NCBI GenBank assembly: GCA_018818105.1
Contig: JAHISK010000002.1
Span: forward strand, 1 to 41,022
Direction of reading: 5' to 3'
DNA from: Candidatus Omnitrophota bacterium
Lineage (GTDB): Bacteria > Omnitrophota > Gorgyraeia > Duberdicusellales > 4484-171
Length of the DNA stretch: 41,022 bases
Under the pieces are notes generated by a model, which ran no database searches, had not been told where the DNA came from, and worked only from the letters and a program-made list of their open reading frames with translations. The translations under genes were made by a program, and so were the position numbers. Shown one piece after another: positions 6,841 to 32,535 of this stretch; the first letter of the stretch is position 1, and every line of letters begins with the position of its first letter.

Positions 6841-6841
6841 A

Positions 6842-6961
6842 ACAGAAGACAGATGCCAGAAAACAGAAGACAGAGTAAAGCTTTATTTATTAAAAGAATT
6901 TTAAAGAAGTCTATAGTCTATGGACTATGGGCTATAGTCTTTTTAGGGTCTATGGTCTTTC
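6842..6961. repeat. Heptad hairpin element H5 (ACAGAAG / GTCTATA words) overlapping the 5' end of the next CDS
   Basis: Left ACAGAAG ACAGATG CCAGAAA ACAGAAG ACAGAGT (6842-6876); right GTCTATA GTCTATG GACTATG GGCTATA GTCTTTT (6909-6943) then GTCTATG GTCTTTC (6948-6961). Confidence 0.8.
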
Positions 6962-7437
6962 TTGGCGCGGCAGGAGCGGAGGTTGTATCACTTAACGATG
7001 CATTGGCTGACCCTTCTAAGTTTGATAAAGAGATAGTTGAGGTTGAAGGTGAGGTTATTGGCGATCTCCTTAAAGATAAAGATGGGGTTTGGATAAATAT
7101 TTTGTCCCAAGGAAGTAATATCGGAATTTTTTCTCGGCGGGATAATTTAGATAAGACAATCAATCATTGGGGAAGCTATAGAGAAAACGGAGATATTGTA
7201 AAAATTAGAGGAGTTTTTTATGCTCAGTGTATCGTTCATCAGGAGATGGATATTCATGCTAATAATATATCAGTTTCAAAAAAAGGTAACGAACGGAAAG
7301 AGACTATAGCTGGCTATAAAGTTAGGTTGTCTATAATTTTTTTTATAATATGTTTGACAACCGCGGTGATTTATTTTATAAAAGTAGGATACCTGCGTAA
7401 TAAGTCGCGGAAGGGTAATACGAATTCAGACGAATAA
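6853..7437 (+). CDS. Predicted OB-fold membrane-anchored protein (signal peptide plus C-terminal TM)
   Basis: Hydrophobic N-terminus SIVYGLWAIVFLGSMVFLGAAGAEVV; central EVEGEVIGDLLKD..WINILSQGSNIGIF.. GDIVKIRGVF is OB-like; C-terminal TM LSIIFFIICLTTAVIYFI. Exact start uncertain. Confidence 0.6.
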   Translation: MPENRRQSKALFIKRILKKSIVYGLWAIVFLGSMVFLGAAGAEVVSLNDALADPSKFDKEIVEVEGEVIGDLLKDKDGVWINILSQGSNIGIFSRRDNLDKTINHWGSYRENGDIVKIRGVFYAQCIVHQEMDIHANNISVSKKGNERKETIAGYKVRLSIIFFIICLTTAVIYFIKVGYLRNKSRKGNTNSDE

Positions 7438-7448
7438 ATAAATTAAAA

Positions 7449-8510
7449 ATGAGTGAGATGGATAAAGAATATAAGATTTTAGAGGAAAATTTTGATAAAG
7501 AGTGTCAGGTAGTTTTTAGTTCGCGCCAATTAGAGGACTTAAGAGTTAAGTATTTGGGGCGTAAATCAGCCTTGGCTCAGTTATTTTCTAAGATTCCTGA
7601 GTTAACGCTTCAGGAGAAAGGTGTTTGGGGTAGGCAGCTTAATATATTAAAACAGAAGATAACCACGGTATTAGAAGAAAAAAGTAGGGCGGTTAAAGAT
7701 GAAGAAGAAACAATGGATTTAACTTTCCCATCATATGGGAAAGAAATGGGATCAACGCATGTTTTAAGTGCTGTTAGTGAAAGTATCTGTTCAATTTTGC
7801 AGCGGCTTGGGTTTGTTGTTGTTGAAGGGGGCGAAATTGAAGATGAGTGGCATAATTTTGCCGCGTTAAATATTCCTTTAGAACATCCTTCAAGAGATGT
7901 TTTTGATACGTTTTATCTGAATGTTAAAGAGAAAAATAGAGGCAAGTATTTATTAAGAAGTCATACTTCTCCGTCTCAGATAAGGGTTATGCGTGAAAGT
8001 AAGCCTCCAATGGCTGTAATTTCTCCTGGACGGGTGTATCGTCCTGATGAGGTTGATGCTACTCATTCTTTTATGTTTCATCAAATAGAGGGGTTTGCTA
8101 TCGATAAGGATATAAATTTTTCTCATTTAAAAGGGGTGTTGCTTCATTTAGTTCAGGAATTTTTTTCTTCTGACGTAAAGTTGCGGTTACGGCCGCATTT
8201 TTTTCCGTTTACCGAACCGTCGGCAGAAGTAGACATCTCCTGTATTATATGTCAAACTCCGAACTCCGAACTCCGAACTAAGAACTCTGGTAGTAAATGC
8301 AGTGTTTGTAAAGATAAAGGGTGGTTGGAAATTTTAGGGTGTGGGATGATTCATCCTAATGTGTTGGAGGCGTGCGAAATAGATTCTAAACAGTATAAGG
8401 GATTTGCTTTTGGAATGGGCGTGGAGCGAATAGCTATGCTTAAGTATGGGATAAATGATATTCGCCTTTTTTATGAAAATGACGTAAGATTTTTAGATCA
8501 ATTTACGTGA
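7449..8510 (+). CDS. pheS: Phenylalanyl-tRNA synthetase alpha subunit
   Basis: LRSHTSPSQIRVM, GRVYRPDEVDATHSFMFHQIEG, FTEPSAEVDISC, GFAFGMGVERIAMLKYGINDIR. Confidence 0.96.
   Translation: MSEMDKEYKILEENFDKECQVVFSSRQLEDLRVKYLGRKSALAQLFSKIPELTLQEKGVWGRQLNILKQKITTVLEEKSRAVKDEEETMDLTFPSYGKEMGSTHVLSAVSESICSILQRLGFVVVEGGEIEDEWHNFAALNIPLEHPSRDVFDTFYLNVKEKNRGKYLLRSHTSPSQIRVMRESKPPMAVISPGRVYRPDEVDATHSFMFHQIEGFAIDKDINFSHLKGVLLHLVQEFFSSDVKLRLRPHFFPFTEPSAEVDISCIICQTPNSELRTKNSGSKCSVCKDKGWLEILGCGMIHPNVLEACEIDSKQYKGFAFGMGVERIAMLKYGINDIRLFYENDVRFLDQFT
8255..8289. repeat. Heptad array H6 inside the pheS coding region
   Basis: AACTCCG AACTCCG AACTCCG AACTAAG AACTCTG: five contiguous phased heptads. Confidence 0.9.
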
Positions 8511-8686
8511 GAAGACCAGCGACCATCGACTAGAAAAATGATAGATTATAAGAATATTAAAGCATATCAATTTGCCGACAATCTAGGTGTAGAAATTTAT
8601 AGAGAGACTAAGGATTATTCGGGTGTTATTTACGAATTAAAATTATTTAAAAGTCTATAGTCAATGGTCTATTGTCTATGGTCTAA
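8511..8686. repeat. Heptad element H7 with arms flanking a truncated four-helix-bundle ORF
   Basis: Left GAAGACC AGCGACC ATCGACT; right AGTCTAT AGTCAAT GGTCTAT TGTCTAT GGTCTAA. Confidence 0.8.
8538..8660 (+). pseudogene. Truncated S23/four-helix-bundle (23S rRNA intervening-sequence protein family) remnant
   Basis: ATG ORF MIDYKNIKAYQFADNLGVEIYRETKDYSGVIYELKLFKSL* resembles the S23 N-terminal pattern (..IKxYQxAxxLxxEIYxxTKxF..) and lacks the rest. Confidence 0.65.
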
Positions 8687-8694
8687 TAATCATT

Positions 8695-10680
8695 ATGAGA
8701 TTTAGTTTAAATTTTGTTAAAGAGTTTTTAGAAGTGGATGTGTTGGCTAAAGAGTTGGCTTCTCTTCTTACCATGTCGGGTATAGAAGTTGAGCATTTTC
8801 AAGCTGAAGGCAATGATTGGGTTTTCGACATAGAAGTTACTACTAATCGATATGATTGGCTCTCTATTATAGGTATTAGCAGAGAGATTGCTTCTTGCCT
8901 TCATCAAAAACTAAAAATTAAATATCCTAAAATTAAGCGTACGCGTCTTTTAAAAGAGAAGAAAATTATCATAGAAGATAGAAATGATTGTTCCTTTTAT
9001 GTAGGTAGCATGATAAAGGGCGTAACCGTAAATTCGTCACCATCCTGGCTAAGTCAAAGAGTACAACATTGCAGCGTTAATTCAATTAATAATATTGTGG
9101 ATATTACGAATTATTGTATGCTTAAATGGGGTAATCCCTTACATGCTTTTGATGCCGATAAAATCGAAGGAGATATCTATATACGCAGAGCAAAAACAGA
9201 CGAATCTTTTGTCGGTATCGATGATAAAGAAAGAAAATTAAATAAAGATAATTTAGTTATAGCGGATAATAGAAAAGTGATCGCGTTAGCAGGTGTCATT
9301 GGCGCTAAAAATACAGAGGTTGATGAGCGCACAAAGAATATCTTTTTGGAAGCGGCAGTTTTTTCTCCTTTGACAGTCCGGCGATCAAGAAGAGCCGCGG
9401 GAATAGATACCGACTCGTCTTACCGGTTTGAACGGCGAGTGTCTGCTGATTATTTAGAGTATGCTGTTGGGTGCGCGGTGCAATTAATAGAGAAGGTAGG
9501 GTCGGGTCAGTTTATGGGGATTTGTGCCGGCGGTTCGAAGTCTTCTTTGAAAAATAAGAAAATAACGATAAGTTTATCTAAGCTGAATGATTATTTAGGT
9601 GAGATTTTTTCCAATAGTAGAGTGAAGTCGATTCTTTCTAATTTAGATTTTGATGTAAAAGAAATTTCTAGAGATAAGCTAACTGTTCGCGCTCCGTCGT
9701 TTCGGTTTGATGTTAATAGAGAAGTTGACGTCTATGAAGAGTTTTCCCGCGTTTATGGGTATAATAACATAACTCCCTCAATTCCCTTTTTAAGGAATCA
9801 AATTCAGGATGATCAGATGTATAAGTTTAAAAATCACCTGCGTCGAATTTTGCCGTTACTTGGATTGAGAGAAATAGTTACTGTTGGCATAGATGGGGAA
9901 CAAAATTTAACGAAACTGGAACAAAAAAAGTGTATAACCATAGTTAATCCGTTAAAGCAGCAGGATAATGCTTTGAGAACCACGCTACTTTCTGGAATGA
10001 TTAAAAGTATTAAGCATAATTTGAATCGGGATCAGCATAATGTTAAGTTTTTTGAGATCGCTAATATATACTTTAAAGATAAGAACGGGTATTGTGAAGA
10101 ACCGGTATTATCAATGGGGACCAGTGGTTTCCGAGAAGATTTTTTTCGGTTAAAGGGAGTGATAGAGGGGCTACTAAAATACTTGAATATAGAGGATATA
10201 AATTTTATAGATAAGGGGAAACCTAATTTCACTAATGCCCTTAGAGTTGTTAGCGGACAAAAAGAGATAGGATTCTTGGGGAAGTTAGATAAGAAGATAG
10301 GAGAGGCGTTTGATTTAAAAGAAGAAGTGTATTTTTCCAGTTTAGATATTAATTTTTTAAAAAAGTTGCATAAGCAAAAAAAGTATAAATCGGTTAGCGC
10401 ATACCCCATTATATCGAGAGATATAAGTATTGCCTTGGCAAAGACTGTTAAATTTGAAGATGTCCAACAGATTATAAAAGAAAAAGCCGCGCAGCTTTTA
10501 TCGGGAGTAAGTGTTGTTGATGTTTATGAGGGGGCTGATGTGCCAAAAAATTGCAGTGTTTTTACGTTAAGAATTTTTTACCAAGCGCAAGATCGAACAC
10601 TTCTTTCCTCTGACGCCGCGGTTTTACATGATAGCGTCAGAGAAGCTTTAGCCGGCAAAGACGGTATTGATTTACGATAG
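8695..10680 (+). CDS. pheT: Phenylalanyl-tRNA synthetase beta subunit lacking the tRNA-binding (EMAPII-like) domain
   Basis: SLNFVKEFLEVD..., B3/B4, B5 and FDX-ACB-like C-terminus; 661 aa. Confidence 0.94.
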   Translation: MRFSLNFVKEFLEVDVLAKELASLLTMSGIEVEHFQAEGNDWVFDIEVTTNRYDWLSIIGISREIASCLHQKLKIKYPKIKRTRLLKEKKIIIEDRNDCSFYVGSMIKGVTVNSSPSWLSQRVQHCSVNSINNIVDITNYCMLKWGNPLHAFDADKIEGDIYIRRAKTDESFVGIDDKERKLNKDNLVIADNRKVIALAGVIGAKNTEVDERTKNIFLEAAVFSPLTVRRSRRAAGIDTDSSYRFERRVSADYLEYAVGCAVQLIEKVGSGQFMGICAGGSKSSLKNKKITISLSKLNDYLGEIFSNSRVKSILSNLDFDVKEISRDKLTVRAPSFRFDVNREVDVYEEFSRVYGYNNITPSIPFLRNQIQDDQMYKFKNHLRRILPLLGLREIVTVGIDGEQNLTKLEQKKCITIVNPLKQQDNALRTTLLSGMIKSIKHNLNRDQHNVKFFEIANIYFKDKNGYCEEPVLSMGTSGFREDFFRLKGVIEGLLKYLNIEDINFIDKGKPNFTNALRVVSGQKEIGFLGKLDKKIGEAFDLKEEVYFSSLDINFLKKLHKQKKYKSVSAYPIISRDISIALAKTVKFEDVQQIIKEKAAQLLSGVSVVDVYEGADVPKNCSVFTLRIFYQAQDRTLLSSDAAVLHDSVREALAGKDGIDLR

Positions 10681-14280: not shown

Positions 14281-15015
14281 ATGTATGAAGAGAGAGTATA
14301 TCGTAATCATATTTTGTCAAAATTTCGAGAAGAGGTGTCATATAAGGAAAGTGACTTATTGATCAGCGCGGATAAACAATTAGATAATCGGGTATCTCGT
14401 AATATTTTAACAAAATATTATAATGAAATAGAAGATTATATAAAGGATAATTCTTCTTTTTTTACGGCTCTTTCGCCGGTAAGCGCCAAAGAAACGGCTC
14501 CTGATATTATCAAGAATATGGCTGCTTGCGCGCGCGTTACAGGGATTGGTCCGTTTTCGGCTGTTGCCGGTGCTATCGCTTTTTATGTTGGCAGCGAGCT
14601 GCTTCAATTTGGGAGTGAACTTATTATTGAGAATGGTGGGGACATTTTTCTTAAAATAAATGAAGATAAGCGCATCGGTGTTTATTTAGGCGAGGGGTTT
14701 TATTCTTCAAAGGATCCGGCGGTGGAAGAAATTTCTTTAATCATTAAAAAACGAGAAGACGCTTTTGGTATCGCGTCATCATCTTCTTCTATCGGTCACA
14801 GCTTAAATTTTGGAAAAGCCCAGTTAGTAACAGTTATCGCGCGAAATTCAATAATTGCGGATGGTTTTGCTACTGCCTTATCTAATCGTATCAAAAAAGA
14901 AACTGATGTTTCTGCCGTCTTAGAAATAGCAAAAGATAATTCTTTGATAGATGCGATTGTTATTGCCTTTGAAGGTAAGCTTTATTTATGGGGAGATATA
15001 GAATTGGAGAGATAA
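14281..15015 (+). CDS. UPF0280 family protein (ApbE-like fold)
   Basis: MYEERVYRN.. VSYKESDLLISADK; VTGIGPFSAVAGAIAFYVG; IIENGGDIFLK; GIASSSSSIGHSLNFGKA. Confidence 0.88.
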   Translation: MYEERVYRNHILSKFREEVSYKESDLLISADKQLDNRVSRNILTKYYNEIEDYIKDNSSFFTALSPVSAKETAPDIIKNMAACARVTGIGPFSAVAGAIAFYVGSELLQFGSELIIENGGDIFLKINEDKRIGVYLGEGFYSSKDPAVEEISLIIKKREDAFGIASSSSSIGHSLNFGKAQLVTVIARNSIIADGFATALSNRIKKETDVSAVLEIAKDNSLIDAIVIAFEGKLYLWGDIELER

Positions 15016-15030
15016 AGCATTCCATTTTAA

Positions 15031-15210
15031 ATTTACAATAAACAACTCCCAAATTACAAACAAATCACAATAGACAATATAAAAAAAGAGAAGATAGATA
15101 AAGAAATATGTTAATAAATTTGGATTATTTCCGTTTTTCGTTTGTGTGTTGTATATTCGGTATTGTCTATTGTTTGTAATTTGTTTATTGTATATTGTTT
15201 ATTTTTGACA
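15031..15210. repeat. Heptad hairpin element H11 (ACAATAA/TATTGTC family)
   Basis: Left ACAATAA ACAACTC CCAAATT ACAAACA; right TATTGTC TATTGTT TGTAATT TGTTTAT TGTATAT TGTTTAT TTTTGACA. Confidence 0.88.
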
Positions 15211-15218
15211 AAACCAGT

Positions 15219-19412: not shown

Positions 19413-19979
19413 ATGGAAATAATCGAAAGATTATACTTAATAGATTTTATAGTTGGAGTTCTGTGCTTGAAAGTAATTTATACCGCTGTCTCTAAGGGGG
19501 TGGTAAATGAAGCTTTTAAAGCATCAGGTATTTTTATTGGTTCTTTATTCAGTTTTCATTATTATCTTCAGGTAGCTGCGAAATTAGAGGCTAATTTACC
19601 ATTTTTAAATAAGAAATACCTTTTCTTTACTGTATTTCTTCTAATTTTTTTAGGGATATTGGCTGTCTTTTCTGTTTTGCGGAAAATAGTTGCTTTTCTT
19701 TATAAGAAAGAAGAGTTCTCAGTTAAAGAAAGATGGATTTCATTTTTCATCGGTGGATTAAGATTTGTTTTATTAGCAAGCGTAATTTTGTTTTTTTTAC
19801 ATCTGTATTCTTTAAACGAAAAATATTACGGTAAGAGCGTATCCTATCGGTTACTTAAGAAAGTTGCTCCCAAGGTATATTTGGTGTCATTGGATTTTTT
19901 GAATTTTTATAAAATAGATACACAAAAAGAGCTTAATAAAGAAGTAAAAAAATATTATGAAAGCGAAGATACAAAATAA
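19413..19979 (+). CDS. cvpA: CvpA family membrane protein
   Basis: Four-TM pattern with LIDFIVGVLCLKVIYTAVSKGVVNEAFKASGIFIGSLFSFHYY. Confidence 0.75.
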   Translation: MEIIERLYLIDFIVGVLCLKVIYTAVSKGVVNEAFKASGIFIGSLFSFHYYLQVAAKLEANLPFLNKKYLFFTVFLLIFLGILAVFSVLRKIVAFLYKKEEFSVKERWISFFIGGLRFVLLASVILFFLHLYSLNEKYYGKSVSYRLLKKVAPKVYLVSLDFLNFYKIDTQKELNKEVKKYYESEDTK

Positions 19980-20135
19980 ACAATATACAATAAACAAATG
20001 GAAAAAATAGATAAAGAAATATGTTGATAAATATAATTGATAAATTTGGATATTCTCAATATCGTTTGTGTATTGTATATTTGGGATTGTAAATTATTTG
20101 TAATTTGTTTATTGTCTATTTGTTTATTTTTGACA
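19971..20135. repeat. Heptad hairpin element H12 (ACAATAA/TATTGTC family)
   Basis: AAAATAAACAATATACAATAAACAAATGG ... TTTGTAATTTGTTTATTGTCTATTTGTTTATTTTTGACA; shares loop text ATAGATAAAGAAATATGTT with H11. Confidence 0.85.
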
Positions 20136-20165
20136 ATACAATAATCAAAATAGGAGGGGTGGAAA

Positions 20166-21128
20166 ATGAAGTTAGAACGGATTTATCATGAAATTGTAAA
20201 GAAAGGTATTGAGTCTGATGTTCGAGATAGTAAGGCTATAGAGGATATTTTAAAAGAAAAGAAATCTTGTTATGAAAAATGTAATAAAAATGATAAAGAC
20301 GACTTTGACGCGGATTCGTTGTTTAATCCTTTTGCTGATACACGTATTCTTTGTGGAGATTTAAAAAGTAATATTAAATCAGTAATAGTGGGCGTTGATG
20401 TTGAGGGCACGGAGCTTTTAGTTGTTGATCGGCTAAGGGAAAAGGGCGTGAAAATAGATTTAGCGATAGCTCATCATCCAGAGGGCAGAGCTTATGCCAA
20501 TTTTTGTGATGTGATGGATTTACAGGTAGATATGTTAGTTAATGAAGGTGTGAGTGTGAGTGTTTCCGCTAATTTTCTTGCGGAGAGAAAGAGTCAGGTA
20601 CAGAGGCGGTTACATGCTGCTAATCATTCTAGAGGAGTGGATATTGCCAAACTCCTAGATATTAATTTCTTATGCATGCATACGCCGTGTGATAATTTGG
20701 CTTATCAGTATCTAAGAAAAAGATTGGATAAGGACAAGCCCGATAGATTAGAGAAAATAATAGATATTCTTTCTACGATGGGTGAATATAAAGAAGCAGC
20801 GAAAAATAATAATCCGCCAAAGATAGTTATTGGAAGTAAAGAATCCCGATGTCAGCATATTCATCTTGAGTTTACAGGAGGAACGGAAGGGTCAAGTAAA
20901 ATATATAAGCACTTATCAGCAAGAGGCGTAGATACGATAATCGCCATGCATCAGACGGAAGAACATTTTAAGGAATGTAAGGATGCTAATATCAATGTGA
21001 TTTTCGCTTCGCACATCGCGTCAGATAATTTAGGAATTAATTTGATGCTTGATTATTTAGAAAGTAAAGAGACTCTTAAAATTCATGAGTTTTCTGGATT
21101 TAGAAGGATTTCTCGCAAGAGTAAATAG
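20166..21128 (+). CDS. NIF3-like (NGG1p-interacting factor 3) family protein
   Basis: SVIVGVDVEGTELLVVDRLREKGVKIDLAIAHHPEGRAY; CMHTPCDNLAY; TIIAMHQTEEHFKECKDANINVIFASHIASDNLGIN. Confidence 0.75.
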   Translation: MKLERIYHEIVKKGIESDVRDSKAIEDILKEKKSCYEKCNKNDKDDFDADSLFNPFADTRILCGDLKSNIKSVIVGVDVEGTELLVVDRLREKGVKIDLAIAHHPEGRAYANFCDVMDLQVDMLVNEGVSVSVSANFLAERKSQVQRRLHAANHSRGVDIAKLLDINFLCMHTPCDNLAYQYLRKRLDKDKPDRLEKIIDILSTMGEYKEAAKNNNPPKIVIGSKESRCQHIHLEFTGGTEGSSKIYKHLSARGVDTIIAMHQTEEHFKECKDANINVIFASHIASDNLGINLMLDYLESKETLKIHEFSGFRRISRKSK

Positions 21129-31827: not shown

Positions 31828-31866
31828 TAGCGTAATGCCAAAACTTTTATTAAAAAGATTGAAATT

Positions 31867-32013
31867 ACAATAAGCAACTTCCAAATAACAATAAACAAAT
31901 GAGGAAAAAAGATAAAAAGATTTATAAATTCATAATATTCTCGGTAGTATATTGTATATTCGGTATTGTCTATTGTTTGTAATTTGTTTATTGTCTATTG
32001 TTTATTTTTGACA
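31867..32013. repeat. Heptad hairpin element H14 (ACAATAA/TATTGTC family)
   Basis: ACAATAA GCAACTT CCAAATA ACAATAA ACAAATG ... CGGTATTGTCTATTGTTTGTAATTTGTTTATTGTCTATTGTTTATTTTTGACA; right end near-identical to H11. Confidence 0.88.
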
Positions 32014-32043
32014 ATACGAATAATAACGTAGGGGGAGGGAATA

Positions 32044-32535
32044 ATGGCAAAGAAAAGAGGAGAGGAACAAATTTTGGATGTAAACGCTAGCATGCAGGGG
32101 AATATGGTATTTTCCGATCCGGTAAATTTACGGATAAACGGTAAATTTGAAGGTATGCTAAATACAAAAGGTAATCTTATCATTGGAGAACAGGCCCAAG
32201 TTAATGCTGAAATTATTGGAGAAAATATAATGGTTGCTGGTAAGGTGAGAGGTAAAATCAAGGCGACAAAGATGCTTGCTTTTAATGCTACGGCTGAAGT
32301 GTTTGCTGATGTTGAAACTCCTAAGATTGCGATTGAAGAGGGAGCGGTCTTTAACGGTAAATGTAAAATGCCGCAGGACAAGATGTTATTGCCAGAGTTA
32401 TCCGAATATCTGTCTATAGAAGAAGATACGCTTAAGGAATGGGTTAGCAATGAACGGATTCCTGTGCATAAAGAAGGTGAAGAGTTGTTGTTTGATCGCG
32501 CGGAAGTAGAAGAATGGATTAGCAGCAAGAAATAG
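32044..32535 (+). CDS. Bactofilin (polymer-forming cytoskeletal) with C-terminal excisionase/MerR-like HTH domain
   Basis: Bactofilin repeats NLIIGEQAQVNAEIIGENIMVAGKVRGKIKATKMLAFNATAEVFADVETPKIAIEEGAVFNGKC, then LPELSEYLSIEEDTLKEWVSNERIPVHKEGEELLFDRAEVEEWISSKK (HTH_17-like). Confidence 0.88.
   Translation: MAKKRGEEQILDVNASMQGNMVFSDPVNLRINGKFEGMLNTKGNLIIGEQAQVNAEIIGENIMVAGKVRGKIKATKMLAFNATAEVFADVETPKIAIEEGAVFNGKCKMPQDKMLLPELSEYLSIEEDTLKEWVSNERIPVHKEGEELLFDRAEVEEWISSKK

Follow-up and report, generated by a model that had tools for sequence, protein, structure and literature searches.

The window, that is the whole stretch of DNA that was analysed (41,022 nucleotides of a Candidatus Omnitrophota bacterium), contained a small heptad-armed feature in the spacer between pheS and pheT. 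The upstream host gene pheS (7449..8510, forward strand) was recognised by its ORF and C-terminal motif, and the downstream host gene pheT (8695..10680, forward strand) by its ORF, its N-terminus serving as the query for the matching junction in relatives. Between the two genes and on the same strand, a 5' heptad arm (GAAGACC AGCGACC ATCGACT, 8511..8531) starts directly 3' of the pheS stop codon and is followed by an ATG ORF of 40 amino acids (8538..8660) and by a 3' heptad arm (AGTCTAT AGTCAAT GGTCTAT TGTCTAT GGTCTAA, 8652..8686), the stop codon of the ORF lying inside the first two units of the latter. The positions and letters of the arms and the ORF in the first-pass annotation were exact, as were the end of pheS at 8510 and the start of pheT at 8695. 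In a lag-7 comparison, 10/14 positions of the left arm were identical; the right arm, for which TRF gave a period of 7, reached 17/21.

The best inverted match between the two arms spanned 21 columns with 16 matches (16/21), and because this was equalled in 6/2000 shuffles, the pairing of the window copy's arms, taken alone, is only moderately above chance and counts as fair evidence. This doubt was removed by a second truncated copy (C78:11072-11188), since it repeats GGTCTAT-type arms, with about 10 heptads on the left and 5 on the right, around a related peptide that is 67% identical to the window peptide and ends soon after the first helix. The window peptide produced no match against the Pfam and NCBIfam profiles. 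An HMM of 191 full-length S23 relatives scored it at 8.6 bits and its C78 sister at 16.4 bits, and these two were the only ones to align in the S23 N-terminal register among 2043 short ATG peptides from 331 kb of the genome. The first-pass annotation had described the ORF as the N-terminal part of an S23/IVP four-helix-bundle protein, and the family HMM agreed; the lack of a profile hit, which it had named as a ground for rejection, held for the curated libraries and not for the family-specific profile. By its sequence, the window peptide is a fragment of S23 and not a member of the family, the resemblance being real but weak. A search of 58 related genomes for an intact gene from which this very peptide could derive gave nothing beyond the C78 sister copy.

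In most relatives nothing is inserted in the pheS-pheT spacer, which then measures 0-30 nt; different hairpins occupy it in a few others. From this spacer comparison (L279-L303), the whole stretch 8511..8686 (forward strand) is probably a degenerate, decayed copy of an S23 cassette that has lost the part of its gene after the first helix. Heptad arrays were also observed elsewhere in this part of the window. An array of AACTCCG (x4.7, 8255-8287) lies in frame within pheS and encodes NSELRTKNSG. These residues belong to a linker that joins two cysteine pairs and is variable among relatives in both length and sequence. Two further heptad arrays, at 6841-6943, extend across the beginning of an ORF (6853-7437) whose N-terminus they would encode; the start annotated for this ORF may be wrong or hairpin-derived.

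The S23/IVP proteins form a widespread family whose function is unknown. This genome contained four full-length S23 genes above the TIGR02436 cut-off, and inverted heptad arrays flanked all of them (4/4), with the motifs GGGTCAA, GGATTAA, TACAAAC and AGAAACC, one each. The family was present in 49/58 related genomes with a patchy distribution, and the PF05635 cut-off was exceeded by the full-length loci L001-L004, L010 and L329. Of 87 full-length S23 genes with flanks, 70 had a lag-7 array at most 150 bp away on at least one side and 38 had such arrays on both, compared with lag-8 arrays at 16 genes and arrays of lags 5, 6, 9 and 10 at 1-3. Octad (lag-8) arms replace the heptads in some cassettes (L045, L080, L089, L043 and others), and a few have lag-9 arms. 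Up to 60 bp from S23 genes the density of lag-7 arrays was 0.47; at distances above 200 bp it was about 0.02, and for other lags it was about 0. Flanks of the same gene paired (28 columns, at least 19 matches) in 89%, compared with 6.5% when flanks were swapped between genes.

Inverted arms were found at 147/181 S23 genes, an array together with inverted arms at 134/181, and at least one of these two signals at 174/181. The combination of both occurred at 8/1026 shifted positions, 0/21 ParE genes and 0/25 rpsT (S20) genes, which bears out the expectation of the first-pass annotation that full-length S23 genes would be flanked by inverted lag-7 arms more often than controls. Full-length genes lacking such flanks, which it had given as the contrary case, do exist, but only about 4% of the S23 genes were without any arm by a loose criterion. 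Intact S23/IVP genes (PF05635/TIGR02436) sit almost always between inverted heptad arrays. The arms usually measure 4-6 heptads, and 83% of the 5' arms are rich in purines. S23 is the only gene between the two arms, with no transposase of the cassette's own inside. Similarity of the heptad sequence followed similarity of the S23 protein in a strand-specific manner (Spearman 0.20; permuted, 0.00 +/- 0.03), a co-variation of protein and array that is clear but weak. The neighbouring genes were co-directional in 86% and 85%, and the cassettes insert mostly into the tight intergenic spacers of operons, mostly along the direction of transcription.

Loci were scanned with the closer S23 protein alignment, the broader one being too diverse. 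Named genomes bearing cassettes, drawn from the 80 top-scoring loci among at least 589 and thus not a random sample, belonged to Planctomycetota, Omnitrophota, Bacteroidota, Nitrospirota, patescibacteria, Clostridia and Cyanobacteria, together with one Methanophagales record. The S23 cassette was present on viral contigs also, and the phage records searched for S23 gave no match. Around the fetched S23 loci, the search for 23S rRNA context returned one short motif match only. In small samples, lag-7 arrays numbered 36 in 179 kb from five genomes with 3-10 S23 genes and 2 in 220 kb from six genomes without a full-length S23 gene; in this genome as a whole, lag-7 arrays had a density of 205 per Mb, and lags 5 and 8 gave 3 per Mb. 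The S23 cassette occurs across many bacterial phyla, and neither a transposase nor a reverse transcriptase is recognisable in it.

On Nostocales plasmids, S23 cassettes with about 82-84% DNA identity, arms included, were found at three unrelated loci (A, B and C), each with inspected empty sites that held no heptad array. T. variabilis and Scytonema carried a cassette at site A. In PCC 7120 beta, N. linckia and A. laxa the site was empty, with flanks 98% identical; the insert, which begins with AAATCAG and ends with CTTCTTT, is bordered on both sides by a 5-bp GTAAT duplication. At sites B and C, the cassettes lie between other genes and the relatives are empty, the junction ends being ambiguous with no nameable duplication. 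The junctions of the S23 cassettes are accordingly not uniform. The solo family described below has no duplication, and the search for a target motif beside S23 cassettes gave no clear common flank motif. Because cassettes this similar, arms included, fill sites that are empty in relatives, the comparison of these sequences shows the S23 gene and its arms to move as one unit. Among the features expected of a DNA transposon, terminal inverted repeats and occupied and empty sites were found at the three Nostocales sites, and a transposase of their own was absent.

Three truncated copies that retain part of an S23 gene were found, namely the window copy, C78 and a copy at site A in Nostoc C052 (L334). 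The last is truncated at the 3' side and ends after the FPKSEIY motif, near the break of the window copy. Nostoc PCC 7120 contained two S23 genes (L327 and L328) with an identical protein accession on plasmids gamma and alpha, and the pair does not represent independent insertions because both lie within a larger duplicated stretch. This stretch extends to a transposase end.

The preferred reading, to which we assign a probability of about 0.7, is a minimal mobile cassette made of one S23/IVP gene (about 118 aa) between inverted heptad arrays, of which the window copy is a decayed example. On either side of its S23 gene, each cassette would carry one array of an inverted pair, usually with 4-6 degenerate units that are heptads or, in some cases, octads. 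The arms, which were seen to pair, would fold back into a long stem. The S23 protein of Xanthomonas has been described as a toroidal homopentamer (PMC4990558), and the S23 relatives 2gsc and 2rld have solved structures with five chains each. Such a pentameric ring would bind the heptads of its own arms or of the arm transcript and, once bound, would bring the ends of the cassette together for integration or copying by an enzyme that would be encoded elsewhere, outside the cassette. Once transcribed, the stem may be cleaved by RNase III of the host, as with the Coxiella intervening sequence, and insertions into operons or rRNA would then be tolerated. A wider proposal is put forward tentatively, at somewhat less than even odds: S23 heptad cassettes may form a class of minimal mobile elements across phyla, without transposase, recombinase or reverse transcriptase, in which the ring-forming protein recognises the tandem heptads that flank its gene and enlists a foreign enzyme, and of which the rRNA intervening sequences and the heptamer repeats of cyanobacteria, Xanthomonas and other groups, which have long lacked an explanation, could be members or debris.

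Heptad-armed repeats without an S23 gene ranked first among the interspersed families of the portion of this genome that was sampled, and such solo hairpins far outnumber the S23 genes. One solo hairpin of a repeated family, with TACAATAAACAA / TTGTTTATTGT arms, lies at 19964..20121 (no strand assigned) and has no S23 remnant. The interspersed hairpins of about 200 bp with TACAATAAACAA-type arms were seen at 15003-15216, 19970-20168 and 31859-32046, likewise without an S23 remnant, and several copies share their interior. In most solo hairpins of this genome an S23 remnant was undetected, and when solo arrays were compared with the S23 arms of 20 genomes, those of the resident genome came 3rd, 9th and 5th and did not surpass foreign ones.

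A solo family of about 180 bp in Nostocales (L345, L370-L376) carries AATTCAG/AGTCAG heptads as in the Nostocales S23 cassettes. Its core is structured, with covarying hairpins (7 compensated pairs in 8 sequences), and gave no match above chance against Rfam. ATAA stands directly at the right end in 8/8 copies, and insertion was clean, with no target duplication and with ATAA already present at two exact empty sites, one within an S23 gene (L345 compared with L344) and the other within rarA. On a plasmid of Calothrix brevissima NIES-22, rarA is split by the solo element L372, and its halves are annotated as separate genes. The insertion of this solo family resembles, by analogy, that of Y1 HUH elements.

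The first-pass annotation had proposed that intact heptad-flanked S23 cassettes are the parental unit and that the solo hairpins are derivatives. The first part is favoured by gene-bearing cassettes that are real units with empty sites and by the three truncated remnants; against the second part stand the solos, most of which have no remnant and match the resident arms no better than foreign ones, and the Nostocales solo family, whose core has a structure of its own and whose junction signature differs. The proposed general descent of solo hairpins from intact cassettes stays a hypothesis.

Several other explanations were weighed. A Y1 HUH transposase of the IS200/IS605 or RAYT type might move the solos in trans, and S23 cassettes may share that route, which we consider somewhat unlikely. 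The ATAA at the right end of all eight Nostocales solos and the duplication-free insertion at the two exact empty sites speak for this route, and Y1 genes were found in array-rich genomes and were undetected in G001, G004, G043 and G055. Heptad flanks, however, occurred at only 1/16 Y1 genes upstream and 0 downstream, and heptad-flanked RAYT/Y1 genes were rejected on this count; genome G056 contained Y1 genes and yet no lag-7 array in 40 kb, and the S23 cassettes have no common flank motif and, at site A, a 5-bp duplication.

It is unlikely, to a greater degree, that the arrays are older, independently mobile hairpins with S23 genes as cargo between their arms, or that they form a hotspot for S23 insertion. 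Such an origin would fit the large excess of solo hairpins, mostly without S23 remnant, their lack of a better match to resident S23 arms, and the solo with AATTCAG-type heptads inserted in an S23 gene (L345). It agrees poorly with empty sites at loci A-C that are free of arrays, with the joint conservation of gene and arms between unrelated sites, and with the near absence of arrays from the sampled genomes without S23 genes.

Selection of the arms as RNA-processing or regulatory stems of operons, used by an S23 protein with a cellular role, was judged quite improbable. The co-directional neighbours and the cutting of the Coxiella stem by RNase III (PMC4990558) are compatible with it, but most relatives have no copy at the pheS-pheT junction, copies decay and their distribution is patchy. 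Mismatches within the arms showed no G-U preference (60 G-U against 76 A-C), and selection on RNA pairing of the coding strand is therefore unsupported. A DGR-like retroelement, with Avd as a relative of S23, is very improbable: S23 proteins weakly match Pfam bAvd and 3'-truncated copies such as L334 exist, but RVT_1 was undetected in the cassette-bearing genomes G000, G006, G025, G041 and G050, which speaks against a requirement for reverse transcriptase, and the arrays showed no adenine-specific variation, DGR-like mutagenesis being rejected for the lack of a one-strand adenine bias and for substitution spectra of the two arms that mirror each other.

The reading as a mobile S23 cassette brings together the S23/IVP family, the heptamer repeats and the mobility of rRNA intervening sequences in one unit with occupied and empty sites. 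To our knowledge, the heptamer repeats reported in several bacterial groups have no agreed origin, and we know of no case in which the proposed mobility of rRNA intervening sequences has been shown. A search of open-licence PMC, preprints excluded, found no literature joining S23 genes and heptad arms as a mobile unit; the intervening sequences, the heptamer repeats and the S23 structure are known separately, and within the literature searched both their connection and its wide occurrence seem to be new. The culturable hosts Trichormus variabilis ATCC 29413, whose S23 protein has the accession WP_011316862.1, and Nostoc punctiforme PCC 73102 make heptad binding and movement directly testable.

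As regards known systems, IS200/IS605-derived palindrome-associated elements insert without duplication by a fixed tetranucleotide and have structured ends. The Nostocales solo family is alike in its duplication-free insertion by ATAA and its structured ends, and differs in heptad arms that are shared with S23 cassettes. REPIN/RAYT systems likewise combine small dispersed inverted-repeat units with a gene flanked by those repeats (PMC3116915), but here the flanked gene is S23 and not a Y1 transposase, and Y1 genes are without heptad flanks. The Avd protein of DGRs is comparable in that S23 is a related four-helix bundle with weak bAvd matches, whereas S23 cassettes are without reverse transcriptase (five genomes) and without adenine mutagenesis. 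A figure legend in a CRISPR-mining paper lists '23S rRNA IVP' among CRISPR-associated domains (PMC10910872); going by that legend, tandem arrays adjoining S23 genes might account for the link.

Heptamer repeats have been described as TAACTGA in Beggiatoaceae (PMC4679880) and as GGGAATC in Xanthomonas and GGGGA(C/T)T in Nostoc, with about 70 inverted heptamer-repeat pairs per Xanthomonas genome (PMC4692102). The cyanobacterial STRR/heptamer repeats are degenerate, tandem and intergenic, as are the arrays beside the Nostocales plasmid S23 genes, whereas the excerpted text of these papers treats them as repeats or regulatory/G4 sequences, with no tie to an S23 gene or a mobile unit (PMC4679880, PMC4692102). 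23S rRNA intervening sequences bearing an S23p ORF are known from Coxiella, Leptospira and Brucella; that of Coxiella contains the S23p ORF and a 28-bp stem, is excised by RNase III and has three tandem GACAGAT heptamers upstream of the ORF, which vary among strains (PMC4990558). An S23p ORF bordered by complementary termini is equally found at the 147/181 S23 genes and in the window copy (16/21), and the heptad repeats of the Coxiella sequence are paralleled by the arrays in the window and its relatives. The intervening sequences lie within rRNA helices, whereas the window cassette lies between pheS and pheT and the elements described here lie between protein-coding genes and have, in many phyla, arms that consist of inverted heptad arrays. 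By this comparison, the Coxiella rRNA intervening sequence looks like a cassette of the S23 heptad kind placed in an rRNA helix.
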